Of a stretch of 64,000 bases of DNA, positions 30,530-46,570 are shown one piece after another. The position numbers and the translations under genes were made by a program. The stretch comes from Flavobacteriaceae bacterium NBU2973 (lineage in GTDB: Bacteria > Bacteroidota > Bacteroidia > Flavobacteriales > Flavobacteriaceae). Below the pieces are notes generated by a model, which did no database searches, was not told where the DNA came from, and saw only the letters and a list, made by a program, of their open reading frames with translations. The first letter of the stretch is position 1. Each line of letters opens with the position of its first letter. The stretch is taken from the NCBI GenBank assembly GCA_026162565.1, contig JAOEIQ010000001.1, positions 372,001-436,000 of the forward strand, written 5' to 3'.

Positions 30530-31624
30530 TTACTTTAAAACTTTAGCTTTTTGTTTTGCTTGTTCGTTACGTTCAATTGTATAATCTGGTCTTGACCATT
30601 TTGGCTTTTCTCCTAAAGCCTGATATTGAGAATCTTCGGCTTCTATAGTTTTAGGTTGCATTTTTTTAATAAATGGTTTTTGAGGATTTAAGCCTAATAA
30701 CTTAAACATTTCCATATCCTCATTTACATCAGGATTAGGAGTTGTTAATAGCTTATCACCTGCAAAAATAGAATTGGCACCAGCAAAGAAACACATAGCT
30801 TGACCTTCTCTAGTCATCTGCGTTCTTCCAGCACTTAATCGCACTTGAGTTTCTGGCATTACAATTCTAGTCGTTGCTACCATTCTAACCATGTCCCAAA
30901 TAGAAACAGGTTGTTGATCTTCTAAAGGAGTGCCTTCAACTGCAACTAATGCATTAATTGGTACAGATTCTGGTTGTGGATTTAAAGTAGCTAAAGCAAC
31001 TAACATACCTGCTCTATCTTCCTCTTTTTCTCCCATTCCAATAATACCTCCAGAGCAAACGGTTACATTTGTTTTACGCACATTATCTATGGTTTCTAAA
31101 CGGTCTTCAAAACCACGTGTAGAAATAACTTCTTTGTAGTATTCTTCAGAGGAATCTAAATTATGGTTGTAAGCATACAAGCCAGCTTCTGCTAAACGTT
31201 TTGCTTGATTTTCTGTGACCATTCCTAGTGTGCAACAAACTTCCATATCGAGTTTGTTAATAGTTCTAACCATTTCTAGTACTTGATCAAATTCAGGACC
31301 ATCTTTTACATTTCGCCAAGCAGCTCCCATACAAACCCTTGAACTACCTGATGATTTAGCACGAAGTGCTTGAGCTTTGACTTGCTGTACACTCATAAGA
31401 TCATTGCCTTCAATATCAGTATGATAACGAGCAGCTTGAGGACAATAGCCACAATCTTCTGGACAACCACCAGTTTTTATTGATAACAAAGTTGAAACTT
31501 GAACAGTATTAGGATCGTGATGTATACGATGAGTAGTTGCAGCTTCGTATAGCAATTCCATTAAGGGTTTGTTGTAGACTTCTAATATCTCTTCTTTAGT
31601 CCAATTGTGTCGTATCTCGCTCAT
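30530..31624 (-). CDS. bioB: Biotin synthase
   Basis: BioB is the radical-SAM enzyme that inserts sulfur into dethiobiotin. The CxxxCxxC of the SAM cluster is C54-C58-C61 in [13 protein letters not shown]. The cluster ligands and substrate residues recur in [20 protein letters not shown] and RLSAGRTQM. The length of 364 includes a C-terminal extension of about 35 residues beyond the core ([19 protein letters not shown]). It is transcribed alone from a TATTTTTG box at 31648-31655, separate from bioF-bioD-bioA 4-8 kb away. Confidence 0.97.
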
Positions 31625-31740: not shown

Positions 31741-32790
31741 ATGAGAAGTTTTAGAAATACAGGTAGAATCAAAGTTTTTTTTAAGGATCCCAATAAAAAA
31801 GGATTTTTTAAAATGCTAAATGAAGTACTTACACTTTGGAAACTTAAAAAGGAGTTTCCTTTCTATTATTTTAAATACGTTTACAGAAAACATGTTTCTA
31901 ATTATAAGGACTATTTAAGCACAAAAGAAGTTGTTAAGATTGGATTAAGTAAAAAATTACATAACCCAATCTATCACAAAGTAATTGAAGATAAATTAGA
32001 ATTTGCTTTACAGCACCAAATAGGAACTTTTAGAACTCCAAAGCTTGTTAGTTATAATAAAGGAATCAACTTTTATTATAATGATTCTATTCAAGAAATA
32101 TCTAATAAAAATGATTTGATAGATTTCTTCAATAAAGTGTTTACTGATACAAATTTAGAAGAACTGTTTTTTAGACCTCCTTCAGATTATGGAGGGAAAG
32201 GCTGTTTTAAATTGACTAAAAAAAATCTAAAAAGCGAAATAGATGAAATAGCCGATGATTTATTATCTGGCACTTATGTTCACAACGAAGTAGTAAAACA
32301 GCATGAAGCACTCAATAAAATACATCCTAATTCGGTAAATACAATTCGGTTGTTATCGTTTATTACTAAAACAGGAGACATAGAAATAATAGGAAGCTTT
32401 ATTAGGTTTGGGGTTGGAACAAGTGTTGTAGATAATGCATCTTCTGGAGGTATTTTTGTTGGTGTAAATATTGAAGATGGAACTTTAAAAAAGAAAGGGC
32501 ACTATTTTATTGAGTATGGCGGAGCAGAAATTTTTAAGCATCCTGAAAGCGGATTTGTTTTCGAAGGGTTTATAATTCCTTATTATGAAGAAGCTAAATC
32601 AGAAGTCAAAAAAGCTGTAAAAGCAATACCTGATAGATTTATAGGTTGGGATGTTGCTATAACACCAAGTGGTCCTACAATAATTGAATCAAATGCTGGC
32701 CCTCATTTACCAGGAAGTGATATTGCCCACGGAGGATTTTTAAAAGATAAAATTTGGCGTGATCTTTTAAAAGAATTAGACGAGGATTAA
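31741..32790 (+). CDS. Sugar-transfer-associated ATP-grasp domain protein
   Basis: The 349-residue protein has no signal peptide. From about residue 95 it shows an ATP-grasp fold: FFRPPSDYGGKGCFKL (ATP-binding loop) near residue 142, HNEVVKQHEALNKIHPNSVN near residue 182, ASSGGIFVGVNIEDG near residue 233 and the metal-binding FIGWDVAITPSGPTIIESNA near residue 300. This is the arrangement of the ATPgrasp_ST (PF14397) family, usually found with polysaccharide genes; its reaction is an ATP-dependent ligation of unknown substrates. Here it stands among biotin genes and converges with the ketoacyl synthase with a 4-base overlap. Confidence 0.87.
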   Translation: MRSFRNTGRIKVFFKDPNKKGFFKMLNEVLTLWKLKKEFPFYYFKYVYRKHVSNYKDYLSTKEVVKIGLSKKLHNPIYHKVIEDKLEFALQHQIGTFRTPKLVSYNKGINFYYNDSIQEISNKNDLIDFFNKVFTDTNLEELFFRPPSDYGGKGCFKLTKKNLKSEIDEIADDLLSGTYVHNEVVKQHEALNKIHPNSVNTIRLLSFITKTGDIEIIGSFIRFGVGTSVVDNASSGGIFVGVNIEDGTLKKKGHYFIEYGGAEIFKHPESGFVFEGFIIPYYEEAKSEVKKAVKAIPDRFIGWDVAITPSGPTIIESNAGPHLPGSDIAHGGFLKDKIWRDLLKELDED

Positions 32791-33953
32791 GCTTTCTTCA
32801 AAACGATACTCACAGCATTACCTCCAAAACCAACGGCATTGACTAGAATAGTTTCTAATTTTTCAGGAAGTTTTTCGTTACTATATGGCACAGAAATAAA
32901 CTGCTGTTTTTTTAACATATAAATAGCCATTTCTACACTTAATAGTCCTGATGCACCAAGTGTATGACCTAATTTCCATTTATTATTTGTCAGGCTAGGA
33001 CGCTTATTTTTAAAAACTTTTTTAATGGCTTTATACTCTGCTAAATCTCCTTTAATGGTTCCAGGAGTATGGGTAACAATAACATCTGAAGTTTTTAGGT
33101 TTGCAGAATCTAATGCCATCTGCATAGATTTTTGAAAACAATCAGCTTCAGTTGAAATAGAAGTGTTATTTTTTAAAATTTCGGTAGCATAACCAAACCC
33201 TCCAATGGTAGCCAAAGCGTTTTTAGACAGTCCTTTTTCTAAACAAGCAACCGAAGCTCCTTCACCTAAAACCATTGTGTTTTTAGTTTTTTTAAAATCT
33301 AAAGCACGACAAGGATATTTTATTTCGGACATTGAGGTTCTCGAAATGTCGGAGTTACTGTAGATTTTTAGAGCTTTCATTTGAGCAATTGTGAAAGGGG
33401 TTAAAGGTGCTTCACTACCTCCAACCAAAAAGGTATCAGACATTCCAGAGTTAATCCAAGCAATTCCATTTAACATCGCATGTAATGCTGTTGAGCATGT
33501 TATTGAATGCGAAATTTCAGGACCATTGGTTTGTAAATCATGAGCTACCCAAGAGGAAATATTTCCTAAAGTAGTAGTAGGTGAACTTAAAGTTTTTGCT
33601 TGATCTGAATTTAAAAAATCTTGATAATAGGATTCAAATAAGGATGTTGCACCACGAGATGAACCAATATTAATCCCAAAATTATCTGAAGCTTTCCAAT
33701 TAGCATTTTTAATAGCTAATCGAGAAGCATACATAGCATATAAAACGGAGTTATCTAATGTTTTATATTTAGAATTTTCTTGCCTTAATTTTTCAATTAA
33801 TAGGTTACTTTCTTGAGATAATTCTGCAACTAAATCAGTATCATTTTTAGTAATAAAATGACGATTGTTTAGGTAGTTATTCCAAATAGAATCGTAAGTA
33901 TTTCCTAAAGGAGAAATTGATGAAACTGCAGTTATAGAGATAGGCTCTTTCAA
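32787..33953 (-). CDS. Beta-ketoacyl-ACP synthase-like protein of the biotin region
   Basis: A 388-residue thiolase-fold enzyme related to FabF. All three catalytic residues are visible: Cys in SITCSTALHAML near residue 150, His in VIVTHTPGTIKGD near residue 291 and His in WKLGHTLGASGLL near residue 328. It is shorter than FabF (about 412 residues) and diverged in the loop GGSEAPLTPF. In flavobacteria a ketoacyl synthase of this kind is usually near bioA/D/F, which suggests a dedicated role in building the pimelate chain. That is inference; a role in another acyl pathway cannot be excluded. It has its own promoter box. Confidence 0.88.
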   Translation of the reverse strand: MKEPISITAVSSISPLGNTYDSIWNNYLNNRHFITKNDTDLVAELSQESNLLIEKLRQENSKYKTLDNSVLYAMYASRLAIKNANWKASDNFGINIGSSRGATSLFESYYQDFLNSDQAKTLSSPTTTLGNISSWVAHDLQTNGPEISHSITCSTALHAMLNGIAWINSGMSDTFLVGGSEAPLTPFTIAQMKALKIYSNSDISRTSMSEIKYPCRALDFKKTKNTMVLGEGASVACLEKGLSKNALATIGGFGYATEILKNNTSISTEADCFQKSMQMALDSANLKTSDVIVTHTPGTIKGDLAEYKAIKKVFKNKRPSLTNNKWKLGHTLGASGLLSVEMAIYMLKKQQFISVPYSNEKLPEKLETILVNAVGFGGNAVSIVLKKA

Positions 33954-36523: not shown

Positions 36524-36530
36524 ACATATT

Positions 36531-36549
36531 TCCTGCGAAAGCAGGAATC
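36531..36549. repeat. Short palindromic repeat TCCTGCGAAAGCAGGAATC
   Basis: TCCTGC pairs with GCAGGA around GAAA. It lies 8 bases upstream of the bioA start and is of a different family from the adjacent TCAT...CTGAA repeats. Confidence 0.7.
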
Positions 36550-36573: not shown

Positions 36574-36725
36574 GTCATTCCGAAAGGACGTTGAGGTACT
36601 CGAAACGTGTTTCGGAATCTCATCTGCTTGTATGACTCTGAAATAAATTCAGAGTGACGTTTAGTTTTTTATTTGTCATGCTGAACTTACTTGTGCTGAA
36701 CTGGTTTCAGTATTTCAGCATCTCA
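36574..36725. repeat. Cluster of three REP-like repeats downstream of the GIY-YIG gene
   Basis: Three palindromic units lie in tandem: GTCATTCCGAA (36574-36584) with TTTCGGAATCTCAT (36610-36623); ACTCTGAA (36635-36642) with TTCAGAGTGACGT (36648-36660), in opposite orientation; and TGTCATGCTGAACTT (36674-36688) with ATTTCAGCATCTCAT (36711-36725). All fit the family seen at 35175 and inside bioF. The 208-base gap between bioA and the GIY-YIG gene is almost entirely made of these repeats and the palindrome at 36531. Confidence 0.85.
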
Positions 36726-36731
36726 TTTTAG

Positions 36732-37010
36732 TTAGTAATCTAATGTTTTTAGAGTTGGATTCGAAGTTTTAATTAAATTAATTTTCCATTCTTTATGCCA
36801 ATTTTTCAATTGTTTTTCTCTTGCTATTGCTTGCTCAATATCTGTAAATACTTCAAAATAAACTAAATCTTTCGTGTTATATTTTTTAGTGAATTTTGAA
36901 GCTTTTTCTTCATAATGTTCAGCTAAACGTTTTGTTAAATTAGCAGTTACTCCTATGTAAAAAGTCGTTCTATATGTATTAGTTAATATATATACGAAAC
37001 TGTTTTTCAT
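36732..37010 (-). CDS. Small GIY-YIG nuclease domain protein between repeats
   Basis: A 92-residue protein consisting only of a GIY-YIG domain (UPF0213/COG2827 type). The two-strand signature is YIL (7-9) and YIG (18-20); the catalytic Arg is R28 in TKRLAEH and the Glu is E65 in AIAREKQLKNW. All key residues are present, so it may be an active endonuclease of unknown target. It sits inside the biotin operon between bioD and bioA, with repeat units immediately on both sides (36574-36725 and 37021-37070). It has no role in biotin synthesis by family; the setting suggests an inserted, repeat-associated cassette. Confidence 0.88.
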   Translation of the reverse strand: MKNSFVYILTNTYRTTFYIGVTANLTKRLAEHYEEKASKFTKKYNTKDLVYFEVFTDIEQAIAREKQLKNWHKEWKINLIKTSNPTLKTLDY

Positions 37011-37020
37011 AATTTATGCG

Positions 37021-37070
37021 ACTCTGAATCACATTTCGATAAACTCAATGTCAAAGTTCAGGGTGACGTT
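37021..37070. repeat. REP-like repeat spanning the bioD stop codon
   Basis: ACTCTGAATCACATTTCG (from 37021) and the outer arm TTCAGGGTGACGTT (37048-37061) form an imperfect inverted unit of the same family. On the minus strand TCACCCTGA encodes the last Ser-Pro of BioD and its TGA stop. Confidence 0.75.
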
Positions 37071-37675
37071 AATTTGCTTTTAAAAAGTTCTGCATATTCC
37101 TTAATGACATTTCTATCAAAATAAGGCTCATCGTTAATACGTCCTATAACGGCTACATTTGTCATTTTTTGAATAATATCTTCAGTGGTTTTATGTTCAT
37201 TTCCACTGTATATTATTGAGACATCAAACCCTTTTTCTTGTAATAGTTTTACAGTAAGTAGTGTGTGATTAATACTTCCTAAATAATGTCTAGATATAAC
37301 AATAACTTTATAATTAGGCTTTATAATATCTAGTATTGTTTTCGAATTATTAAGAGGAACTAGTAACCCTCCAGCACCTTCAATTATTAAATTGTTTTTT
37401 GTATTTGGAGTTTTTATGTCTTTAAGTTGAATTGAAACACCATCAATATCTGCTGCTGCATGTGGACTCATAGGTGTTTTTAAAGCATAACTGTTTTTAT
37501 GAAATACAGATTTAGAATTAGATACCAATCGCTCTACTTTTTTAGTATCGCAATTATCCAACTCACCTGCTTGTACAGGTTTCCAATAGTCAGCTTCAAG
37601 TGCTTCAACTAAAACAGCTGAAGCAATTGTTTTACCTACATCTGTTGAGATTCCTGTTACAAAGTATGTTGTCAT
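37058..37675 (-). CDS. bioD: Dethiobiotin synthetase
   Basis: BioD closes the ureido ring of dethiobiotin from DAPA, CO2 and ATP. The 205-residue protein opens with the P-loop VTGISTDVGKT (6-16) and carries YWKPVQAGE near residue 30 and the IIEGAGGLLVPLN switch region near residue 98. The start ATG overlaps the stop of the upstream DUF2007 reading frame as ATGA, indicating translational coupling. The last residues (SKLTSP) and the stop are encoded by a REP-like repeat, so the natural C-terminus may have been altered. Confidence 0.96.
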   Translation of the reverse strand: MTTYFVTGISTDVGKTIASAVLVEALEADYWKPVQAGELDNCDTKKVERLVSNSKSVFHKNSYALKTPMSPHAAADIDGVSIQLKDIKTPNTKNNLIIEGAGGLLVPLNNSKTILDIIKPNYKVIVISRHYLGSINHTLLTVKLLQEKGFDVSIIYSGNEHKTTEDIIQKMTNVAVIGRINDEPYFDRNVIKEYAELFKSKLTSP

Positions 37676-38095: not shown

Positions 38096-39232
38096 TTACC
38101 TTACAAAAGTAGTAAGTAGCTCTAATACTTTTGTTATGTCTTGAGAAGAATTGTAACTATGAAGGCAAAAACGTAAGCGCTCATATCCTTTAGGAACAGT
38201 TGGTGATATAATAGGTTTTACATCGAAACCATGTTCTTGTATTTTTTTTGCGATTTGTTTTACATGGTTGTTTCCAGAAATAACACAACAGTGAATAGCT
38301 GAATTACTATCTATAAATTTTGAATCTATTTGAAGCCTTTTCAATTCTGATTTAAAATGCGTTATATTTTTATGTAAACTGTCAATAGCATGAGTCTGCA
38401 ATAACTCCTCGTAAGCAGAATTAATAGTAGCCAAACTATGAGGTGGTAATCCTGTTGTGTAGATAAACGAGCGAGAAAAATTAATGAGGTAAGTTTTTAA
38501 ACTATTACTACCTAAAATTGCTGCTCCATGACAACCTAAAGCTTTACCAAAAGTTACGATTCGTGCAAATATTTGGTCTTCAATTTTTAGATTTTGAGTT
38601 ATGCCACAACCATTGTTTCCAAAAACACCAACTGCATGTGCTTCGTCTATAATTAGATTGGCGTTATGTGTTTTACAAATTTTTGAAAGCTCTATCAAAT
38701 CAGGAGAGTCGCCATCCATAGAAAAAACAGATTCTGTAACTACATAAATTTCATTTTTATCATGCTGAACACGTTTCAATATCTCATCTAAATCTCTTAA
38801 ATCATTATGCTTAAACTTATACGATTTAGCATGACTCATAGAAATGCCATCGCGAATGGAGGCATGAATTAACTCATCATAAAGTATAATATCATTGCGC
38901 TGAGGTACGCTAGAGAAAAATCCAATATTAGCATCGTAACCAGAATTAAAAACTACAGCAGTTTCTGAATTATGAAATTTACAAAGCGTTATTTCTACAT
39001 CTTGATATAAAGCATGATTTCCAGACAGTAAACGAGAACCTGTAGCGCCATTTTGAATATAGTTTCCCTCAACAAGTAGATTATGAGCCTTATCAAAAAT
39101 GGTTTTAGACTTTGCAAACCCTAAATAATCGTTGGATGAAAAATCTACTAGATTTTGGTTTAAACCAAGTTGTCGAAATGCATTATTTACCTGCCGCTCG
39201 TTTAATTTTTGTAGTAGTTTTTTTGGAAACAT
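38096..39232 (-). CDS. bioF: 8-amino-7-oxononanoate synthase with a repeat-encoded segment
   Basis: BioF condenses pimeloyl thioester and alanine to KAPA. The 378-residue PLP enzyme has FSSNDYLGFA (31-40), SGYDANIGFF (97-106), the cofactor Asp in NLIIDEAHAVGVFG (192-205) and the pyridoxal lysine K230 in IVTFGKALGCHGA. Residues 149-159 (DEILKRVQHDK), between HNDL and VVTESVFSMDGD, are encoded by a sequence matching the local REP-like repeat, and this loop appears slightly longer than in E. coli BioF. It is the first gene of the bioF-DUF2007-bioD-(GIY-YIG)-bioA unit. Its promoter box is so close that the mRNA may be leaderless. Confidence 0.96.
   Translation of the reverse strand: MFPKKLLQKLNERQVNNAFRQLGLNQNLVDFSSNDYLGFAKSKTIFDKAHNLLVEGNYIQNGATGSRLLSGNHALYQDVEITLCKFHNSETAVVFNSGYDANIGFFSSVPQRNDIILYDELIHASIRDGISMSHAKSYKFKHNDLRDLDEILKRVQHDKNEIYVVTESVFSMDGDSPDLIELSKICKTHNANLIIDEAHAVGVFGNNGCGITQNLKIEDQIFARIVTFGKALGCHGAAILGSNSLKTYLINFSRSFIYTTGLPPHSLATINSAYEELLQTHAIDSLHKNITHFKSELKRLQIDSKFIDSNSAIHCCVISGNNHVKQIAKKIQEHGFDVKPIISPTVPKGYERLRFCLHSYNSSQDITKVLELLTTFVR
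38760..38788. repeat. REP-like repeat in frame inside bioF
   Basis: TCATGCTGAAC (38760-38770) followed by ACGTTTCAATATCTCATC (38771-38788) matches the family form TCATnCTGAAC..GTTTCAGnATCTCAT at all but one base, in the same orientation as the copies at 36574 and 36674. It is read in frame by bioF as residues 149-159. Confidence 0.75.
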
Positions 39233-46507: not shown

Positions 46508-46570
46508 ATCCTGAACTAGTTTCAGGATCTTAATTATTATTAGTTAAGATGCCGAATCAGTTTCGGCACT
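46508..46570. repeat. Two REP-like palindromes in the atpD-atpC spacer
   Basis: ATCCTGAACTAGTTTCAGGAT (46508-46528) and GATGCCGAATCAGTTTCGGC (46549-46568) are palindromes of the same family as those in the biotin region. They fill most of the intercistronic gap and could form hairpins in the atpDC mRNA. Confidence 0.8.

Follow-up and report, generated by a model that had tools for sequence, protein, structure and literature searches.

The short palindromes known as CGTC-tagged REPs carry a [CT]GTC tag, a stem of 8-9 bp that starts from A-T and a loop of 4-5 nt, and according to the available sections of the article that describes them they occur in Bacteroidetes (G. forsetii is named), lie inside genes in some cases and include RPE-4 and RPE-6 (PMC3733652). 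The same sections report no association of CGTC repeats with transposase genes and note capture at the same site only once, in recB of two Xanthomonas species; neither GIY nor bioF occurs in the text of that article. In-frame capture of a REP is already known. Rickettsia palindromic elements are likewise palindromic and translated in frame in unrelated core genes, but the classical elements are about 150 bp long (PMC10969869, in the part available), whereas the units described below measure 21-30 bp, and several of their families have used the same enzyme loop in different genera. With the RAYT REPtrons, as far as the available portions of the sources describe them (PMC2817692, PMC3116915, PMC3733652), the loci reported here share a nuclease-like gene beside REPs near gene ends and a family-specific pairing of the two. 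The nuclease of RAYT REPtrons is a Y1 HUH transposase, whereas here it has a GIY-YIG domain (PF01541), and the genome under study has no match to PF01797. GIY-YIG homing endonucleases are a class with this same catalytic domain; the match to TIGR01453 is weak (28.5 of 56.05 bits), and, unlike homing endonucleases, the genes considered here are framed by REPs, with no intron host or homing site shown.

The window analysed here is a stretch of 64,000 nucleotides from Flavobacteriaceae bacterium NBU2973 (contig JAOEIQ010000001.1, positions 372,001 to 436,000), in which one such repeat lies within the biotin gene bioF:

38096 to 39232, minus strand: bioF, 8-amino-7-oxononanoate synthase, 378 aa, best NCBIfam match TIGR00858
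38760 to 38787, plus strand: family-A REP unit, the minus-strand translation of which is BioF residues 149-158 (DEILKRVQHD)
46511 to 46532, plus strand: A-type copy, match to the shortened family-A pattern

That a dispersed DNA repeat forms part of the BioF protein is confirmed: the family-A pattern TCATNCTGAACNNGTTTCANNATCTCAT matches the window at 38760-38787 with 0 mismatches, and 100 dinucleotide shuffles gave no match to it. A chance match of the bioF segment to the repeat was ruled out by these shuffles, by the reversed-pattern control and by the loops of relatives described below. The original prediction had read here a 29-base match encoding 11 residues (149-159); the match itself stands, perfect and in frame, with the limits given above and ten residues, K159 lying just outside the element. 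Its view of a palindromic element captured as protein, as in Rickettsia, is borne out by a dispersed palindrome translated in frame, and the segment between HND and VTE is, as it had estimated, 2 residues longer than in E. coli BioF (1bs0). In keeping with its claim of intact catalytic residues, the enzyme also retains the motifs DEAH and FGKALG, which we take to be catalytic motifs of BioF.

Across the whole genome (3.05 Mb, 29 contigs), family A was found at 21 places with at most 3 mismatches, and the reversed pattern, searched for in the same way, at 0 places. Its plan comprises an 8-bp stem, a 5-nt loop and an unpaired tail CTCAT, and because the stem pair n/n' is complementary in 19 of the 21 copies, with all four pair types represented, against a mean of 5.3 by shuffling, family A is a true palindrome. 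It shares with the CGTC-tagged REPs the tag at one end (CGTC or TGTC in 11/21 copies), the lengths of stem and loop, the A-T pairs with which the stem begins, and the want of a RAYT partner; the short unpaired tail of most CGTC-tagged REPs fits CCA, which is found at the D-type cassette ends discussed below, whereas the A-type tail is CTCAT. Two further A-type copies in the window, at 36696 and 46511, are each 1 mismatch from the shortened pattern. Drift is evident in the bioF copy, which has G/T at the stem pair n/n' and TATC in place of the [CT]GTC tag; on the mRNA strand it folds no better than shuffled sequences (z 0.52), as against z -3.53 for the consensus. The captured unit in this BioF has lost its hairpin and is now protein sequence.

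BioF matches TIGR00858 with an E value of 6.8e-104 and 347.5 bits, which is under the curated cutoff of 426.45. In an AlphaFold2 model built with 51 BioF sequences (mean pLDDT 93.9), residues 149-158 are predicted to span the last part of a helix (145-155) and the first part of the loop that leads to a strand (162-167), outside the conserved motifs and in a stretch whose length varies among relatives. Because of this variation a clean insertion is not readable at the bioF locus of NBU2973 itself; the protein did not just grow by ten residues, and the repeat occupies a helix end and loop of variable length. Two equally scoring BioF copies, each an open frame of 423 aa, are present in one of the genomes (G361:C1:20528 and 3748294).

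The same loop has received REPs repeatedly in relatives. Among 216 BioF loci, 191 were parsed by motif search, giving 180 distinct genes (the 25 that were lost include the repeat-bearing L023 and L129), and REP families were matched in the loop of 48 of the 180, in both orientations and sometimes nested, at mismatch limits (A 4, B 3, B2 2, C 4) that were chosen after inspection of the data; the other 132 had no REP match at these limits. The 48 matches (30 of B or B2, 15 of A and 3 of C; 13 of them at 0 mismatches) fall in 15.3 kb of loop, as against 1 match in the remaining 194 kb of the bioF genes, and reversed patterns at the same limits gave 0 matches on the 180 genes. Family A is read in its two orientations as DEMLKRVQHD (A minus) and RHSELVSES (A plus), family B, TGTCAGACTGAGCGGAGTCGAAG, as CQTERSRS or CHLERSR, its variant B2 as CHTEPVEV, and family C as RFALNDN. 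A B unit is nested within an A unit in the sister loci L052 and L071, and the Winogradskyella sisters L090 (A minus) and L123 (A plus), joined with support 100, carry opposite orientations. On a FastTree tree made without the loop, at least 42 changes of loop state are counted, a rough figure because 76 of the 177 inner branches have support below 80.

The units sit in a preferred register, with A minus 5 residues after HN in 7/7 loops, A plus 10 residues in 4/5 and B 8 residues in 7/9, and third-position identity within the A plus unit is 1.00 as against 0.54 elsewhere in the gene, a value inflated because the rows were picked by DNA match. The same peptide in homologues without the DNA repeat, which the original prediction had named as evidence against itself, was found in part: among 15 loops picked by an A-minus-like peptide, for which DNA mismatches were then counted, seven have 0-1 mismatches and eight have 4-9. 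This gradation fits capture followed by decay, and perfect DNA matches in L080, L081, L198, L020 and L064 exclude protein convergence as a general explanation. Some Flavobacterium BioF loops hold arrays such as AACCATCAACCATC; in the Flavobacterium-like loci L120, L131, L135 and L137, short tandem-like arrays of this kind, and of CAACTTCCAACTTCC, replace REPs. The record of L137 (CALPIE020000009.1) is titled as a Bifidobacterium breve MAG, a title that looks wrong, the BioF being Flavobacterium-like.

Capture is not confined to BioF in the genome of NBU2973. Among the 51 of 68 repeat places whose contexts were examined (all 21 of A and 30 of 47 B-like), in-frame units lie well inside the genes for BioF, IleRS, a PurL-like and an MtaB-like (radical SAM/UPF0004) protein, an E1 dehydrogenase, a TrpE-like (chorismate binding) and a TilS-like protein and an AMP-binding enzyme, the finer names being our reading of the sequences; a further three are found at the ends of genes or within an ORF of 72 aa. 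In IleRS (G000:C10:436514-437113, about 0.5 kb past the end of the window), an in-frame A dimer NSELDSESHDENLKQVQVD provides about 23 residues and is absent from all 12 relatives whose loop was parsed (12 of 29). The IleRS of an order-level relative (G042) carries a different insert at the site of the A dimer. When six genomes picked for A-like BioF loops were searched and 30 of their 36 places examined, 7 places were in ORFs, 3 of these being bioF.

The other genes of the bio cluster in the window are the following:

30530 to 31624: biotin synthase, a member of the bio cluster
32787 to 33953, minus strand: ketoacyl-synthase-like gene of the bio cluster; in 6 of 73 orthologues REP units occupy one loop
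35252 to 36523, minus strand: bioA
37058 to 37675, minus strand: bioD, with a B unit in its loop in two Flavobacterium loci (L142, L144)

The genes bioD, bioA and biotin synthase were named by reading their translations, and the BioD and ketoacyl synthase domains were verified in the proteins of relatives. For comparison, 80 named loci (1.56 Mb) were used, which are the best 80 of a larger set, so that the sample leans to the relatives of the window, and in which gene calls and contexts are longest ORFs, uncurated. A REP match was found in bioF at 24/80 loci, in the ketoacyl synthase gene at 6/73, in bioD at 2/79 and in bioA, at the mismatch limits used, at 0/79, as against 2 of 1114 other genes, each of them with 3 mismatches, the limit; the reversed control on the genes of these loci gave 0 at the same limits. 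Matches at 0 mismatches number 7 in bioF, 3 in the ketoacyl synthase gene, 2 in bioD, 0 in other genes and 4 in the 895 intergenic pieces. In bioD an insertion of exactly one unit can be seen between species, L142 having 21 more bases (one B unit) where L131 reads on. Twenty-five of the 895 intergenic pieces have a REP match, and 28 of the 31 intergenic matches are found no farther than 6 kb downstream of the bioF start (470 kb in total), as against 3 in the other 1113 kb; the crowding thus concerns the bio operon and not just the enzyme. An all-against-intergenic BLAST was discarded, its scoring having been so lax that most genes had matches.

Between bioD and bioA lies a small nuclease gene with REP units around it:

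36732 to 37010, minus strand: solitary GIY-YIG nuclease gene, 92 aa, PF01541 E value 6.3e-17, candidate driver
37016 to 37068, minus strand: degenerate A-type REP immediately upstream of the GIY-YIG start codon and disrupted by a B2-like unit (recognized by eye)
36675 to 36726, minus strand: A-type REP after the GIY-YIG stop codon, split by a second A-like unit (recognized by eye; A match at 36696)
36632 to 36659, minus strand: putative further A-type unit CGTCACTCTGAATTTATTTCAGAGTCAT, read from the letters, core match at 36638-36652
36529 to 36548, minus strand: putative D-type palindrome ATTCCTGCTTTCGCAGGAAT, read likewise, resembling the ends of other GIY-YIG cassettes of the genome

This gene is about 1.1 kb from bioF and has worn REP units at both sides; the cassette is itself worn, its flank score of 14.5 coming from arms that are degenerate, and one arm lies 108 bp beyond the stop codon. 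Seven homologues of the gene were found in the named loci (only those resembling it were counted), and every one belongs to the bio cluster and has A units on at least one side. Of the 16 genomes with a listed BioF place, 15 have a gene of this type, termed g366 (at least 73% identity), no more than 3 kb from bioF. A-type BioF loops are present in 7 of 14 genomes with such a gene near bioF and in 10 of 93 without, a difference (p 0.001) that ignores kinship, the near-bioF set having been hand-picked among the matches listed (two at 70% identity) and the A set taking in decayed loops. One bio operon (G342:C7:77365 and 78491) contains two g366-type genes. A RAYT as driver in the genome of NBU2973 was ruled out, the PF01797 profile giving 0 matches there; the genome G005 likewise has A copies and 0 PF01797 matches. 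Matches to PF01797 were found in 13 of 40 relatives, and RAYTs therefore exist in the wider group.

GIY-YIG genes are framed by inverted REP pairs elsewhere as well. When flanks were scored irrespective of REP family, 13 of 19 distinct GIY-YIG ORFs had a flanking inverted repeat that scores at least 15, as against 5 of 768 other small ORFs, and these five are two Y1 transposase ORFs of L361 and three GxxExxY nuclease ORFs. At a score of at least 14, an inverted pair is present at 26 of 37 GIY-YIG loci (8 of the 10 loci of this genome and 29 of the best matches, overlapping with the 19-ORF set) and at 0 of 368 random placements, 11 of the 37 being under the threshold. Within this sample, and in the few cases available, REP family corresponds to nuclease subtype: A is paired with g366 (29 loci), B with g365 (at one framed locus), and D, that is TTGTCATTCCTGCGAAGGCAGGAATCC and its relatives, with g369 (at two loci) and g363 (at one); four loci underlie the B and D pairings. 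The D-type ends of GIY-YIG cassettes terminate in CCA. The stems at the two ends of g366 cassettes often differ (L374, L376, L377, L381, L382, L387), the upstream one beginning CGTCAC and the downstream one CGTCAT. GxxExxY genes (TIGR04256, PDDEXK_3) lie just downstream of bioF in the Flavobacterium loci L114, L141 and L142, and inverted repeats of the CCACGGATxAAACGGATT type frame such genes in 3/3 distinct copies; perhaps they constitute a second nuclease cassette of the same plan.

The arrangement extends beyond this family. A tblastn search with the D-type nuclease matched 33 plasmid records, including those of Sinorhizobium, Azospirillum, Sphingobium, Rhizobium, Shinella and Neisseria, and 12 of 15 loci from other taxa (related strains included, with two Sinorhizobium and two Shinella) have an inverted pair, as against 1 of 600 shuffled flanks. 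In Rhizobium CIAT894, CGTCATCCCAGGGCTTGACCCTGGGATCCA flanks the GIY-YIG gene at both sides; among the three misses, Aeromonas has REPs at either side but differently arranged, and R. rhododendri and Photobacterium have none by eye. In four 40-kb regions, the GIY-YIG genes (4/4) score 29 to 81.5 and 0 of 128 other annotated genes reach 14, three IS transposase genes, one of which scores 29.5, having been separated from the 128. On AZO_p3 of Azospirillum lipoferum (L404), a GIY-YIG gene with CGTC REP dimers is located between sufB and sufC, within the suf operon. Among the papers listed from the open-licence PMC literature, to judge by titles, abstract openings and term counts and with subscription literature outside this scope, none deals with REP capture in bioF or with REP-framed GIY-YIG genes. 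Of four listed papers that contain GIY-YIG along with a RAYT or REPIN string, three are on mitogenomes and one is on a restriction enzyme, REPIN being the name of an author there; the GIY-YIG of PMC8565304 concerns another protein in the part of that source available. Recurrent capture by several families at one enzyme loop and the partnership with GIY-YIG genes therefore appear to be new within the open-licence literature, provisionally. The available text of PMC3733652 presents CGTC-tagged REPs without transposase genes, whereas here REPs of that plan frame GIY-YIG genes.

The bioF segment is a REP of the CGTC plan, taken up in frame by a permissive helix-loop and drifted since, and a GIY-YIG cassette is probably its source. 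The data show the repeat family and its translation, repeated capture at this loop, the crowding in the bio operon and the framing of solitary GIY-YIG genes by inverted REP pairs, from which mobilization is inferred. The GIY-YIG nuclease might act on REP hairpins or REP-like targets, and the repair that follows cleavage would copy REPs or whole cassettes, so that a cassette resident in the bio operon (here at 36732-37010) could scatter units into the nearby DNA. Insertions into spacers would be mostly harmless, and survivors within genes would be those that keep an open frame, have a net length divisible by 3 and fall in a surface loop; the BioF loop and, less often, the loops of the ketoacyl synthase and BioD would survive such insertions. 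Older captured units may in turn be targets of later ones, a REP in a REP, so that families and orientations would replace one another at a single site. The loop, operon and cassette data are most simply explained by a unit that resembles a REPtron but has a GIY-YIG nuclease, resides in the biotin operon and disperses its ends nearby, although B and B2 outnumber A among the captures in bioF (30 of 48 against 15), yet the GIY-YIG gene of the operon is A-type, and 28 of 42 operon REP matches are not near a GIY-YIG gene of the window's type. More broadly, there is about an even chance that a solitary GIY-YIG nuclease gene flanked by inverted REPs constitutes a mobile unit of a new class, with the CGTC-tagged REPs found in several phyla as its ends and as its non-autonomous offspring; one such unit, resident in the bio operon of Flavobacteriaceae, would then have repeatedly written its ends into the BioF loop.

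If REPs land at random and the BioF loop merely survives insertion, the GIY-YIG neighbour would be irrelevant, and this agrees with the position of the segment away from the conserved motifs, on a helix end and in a loop that varies in length among relatives, with the non-REP arrays in the same loop in Flavobacterium (L131, L135) and with units in other core enzymes of this genome. Plain tolerance is nevertheless unlikely and already weakened, because units are commoner in bioF, nearly always in the loop (24/80), than in whole intergenic pieces (25/895), and because intergenic units also crowd the bio operon (28 versus 3), where protein tolerance is irrelevant. Such crowding of spacers might instead reflect selection for expression control (mRNA stability, attenuation), under which the bioF copy would have begun as a regulatory element, and post-transcriptional roles of REPs have been proposed (available text of PMC3733652); this origin is decidedly improbable, as the bioF copy of NBU2973 no longer folds, a single site has REPs of several families and of both orientations, and 132/180 homologues are without a match at the limits used. 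A native helix (LxxLLxR) that resembles the repeat by chance, to whose pattern the decayed peptides do conform, is refuted as a general account by the perfect DNA matches in several genera and the 0 matches of the reversed control, and it can hardly apply here.

The register shared across genera (A minus 7/7, A plus 4/5, B 7/9) and the near-identical third positions within the unit, inflated as these are by selection on DNA match, would be expected also from one ancient capture that was then homogenized by gene conversion with dispersed copies, in place of many insertions. Equal unit offsets across genera could indeed reflect inheritance and homogenization instead of fresh insertion; but the helix frame would equally select a fixed register, and the switches of family and orientation between sisters and the nested units would also need insertion or inversion, so that a single capture is an improbable explanation of the whole. 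It is quite doubtful, too, that the GIY-YIG genes are passengers, brought by another route to REPs that served as targets, as some IS elements target REPs (PMC1525189, in the part available), given the tight, oriented pairs at both sides of these genes in many genera and several phyla. In-frame capture of a CGTC-plan REP, with mobilization by a GIY-YIG cassette as its likely cause, remains the reading that we prefer.

A GIY-YIG gene between inverted REPs is a candidate partner for the CGTC REPs, which were reported without a transposase, and a 92-residue protein and a 30-nt hairpin suffice for a test of this partnership. The BioF loop provides a natural experiment in protein innovation, with dozens of inferred state changes at one loop, and the empty, fresh, nested and decayed states of this loop in related species follow mobile DNA as it becomes protein sequence while the enzyme stays recognizable and intact. 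If this reading is true, a mobile element would continually supply a single site of an enzyme with new protein sequence.
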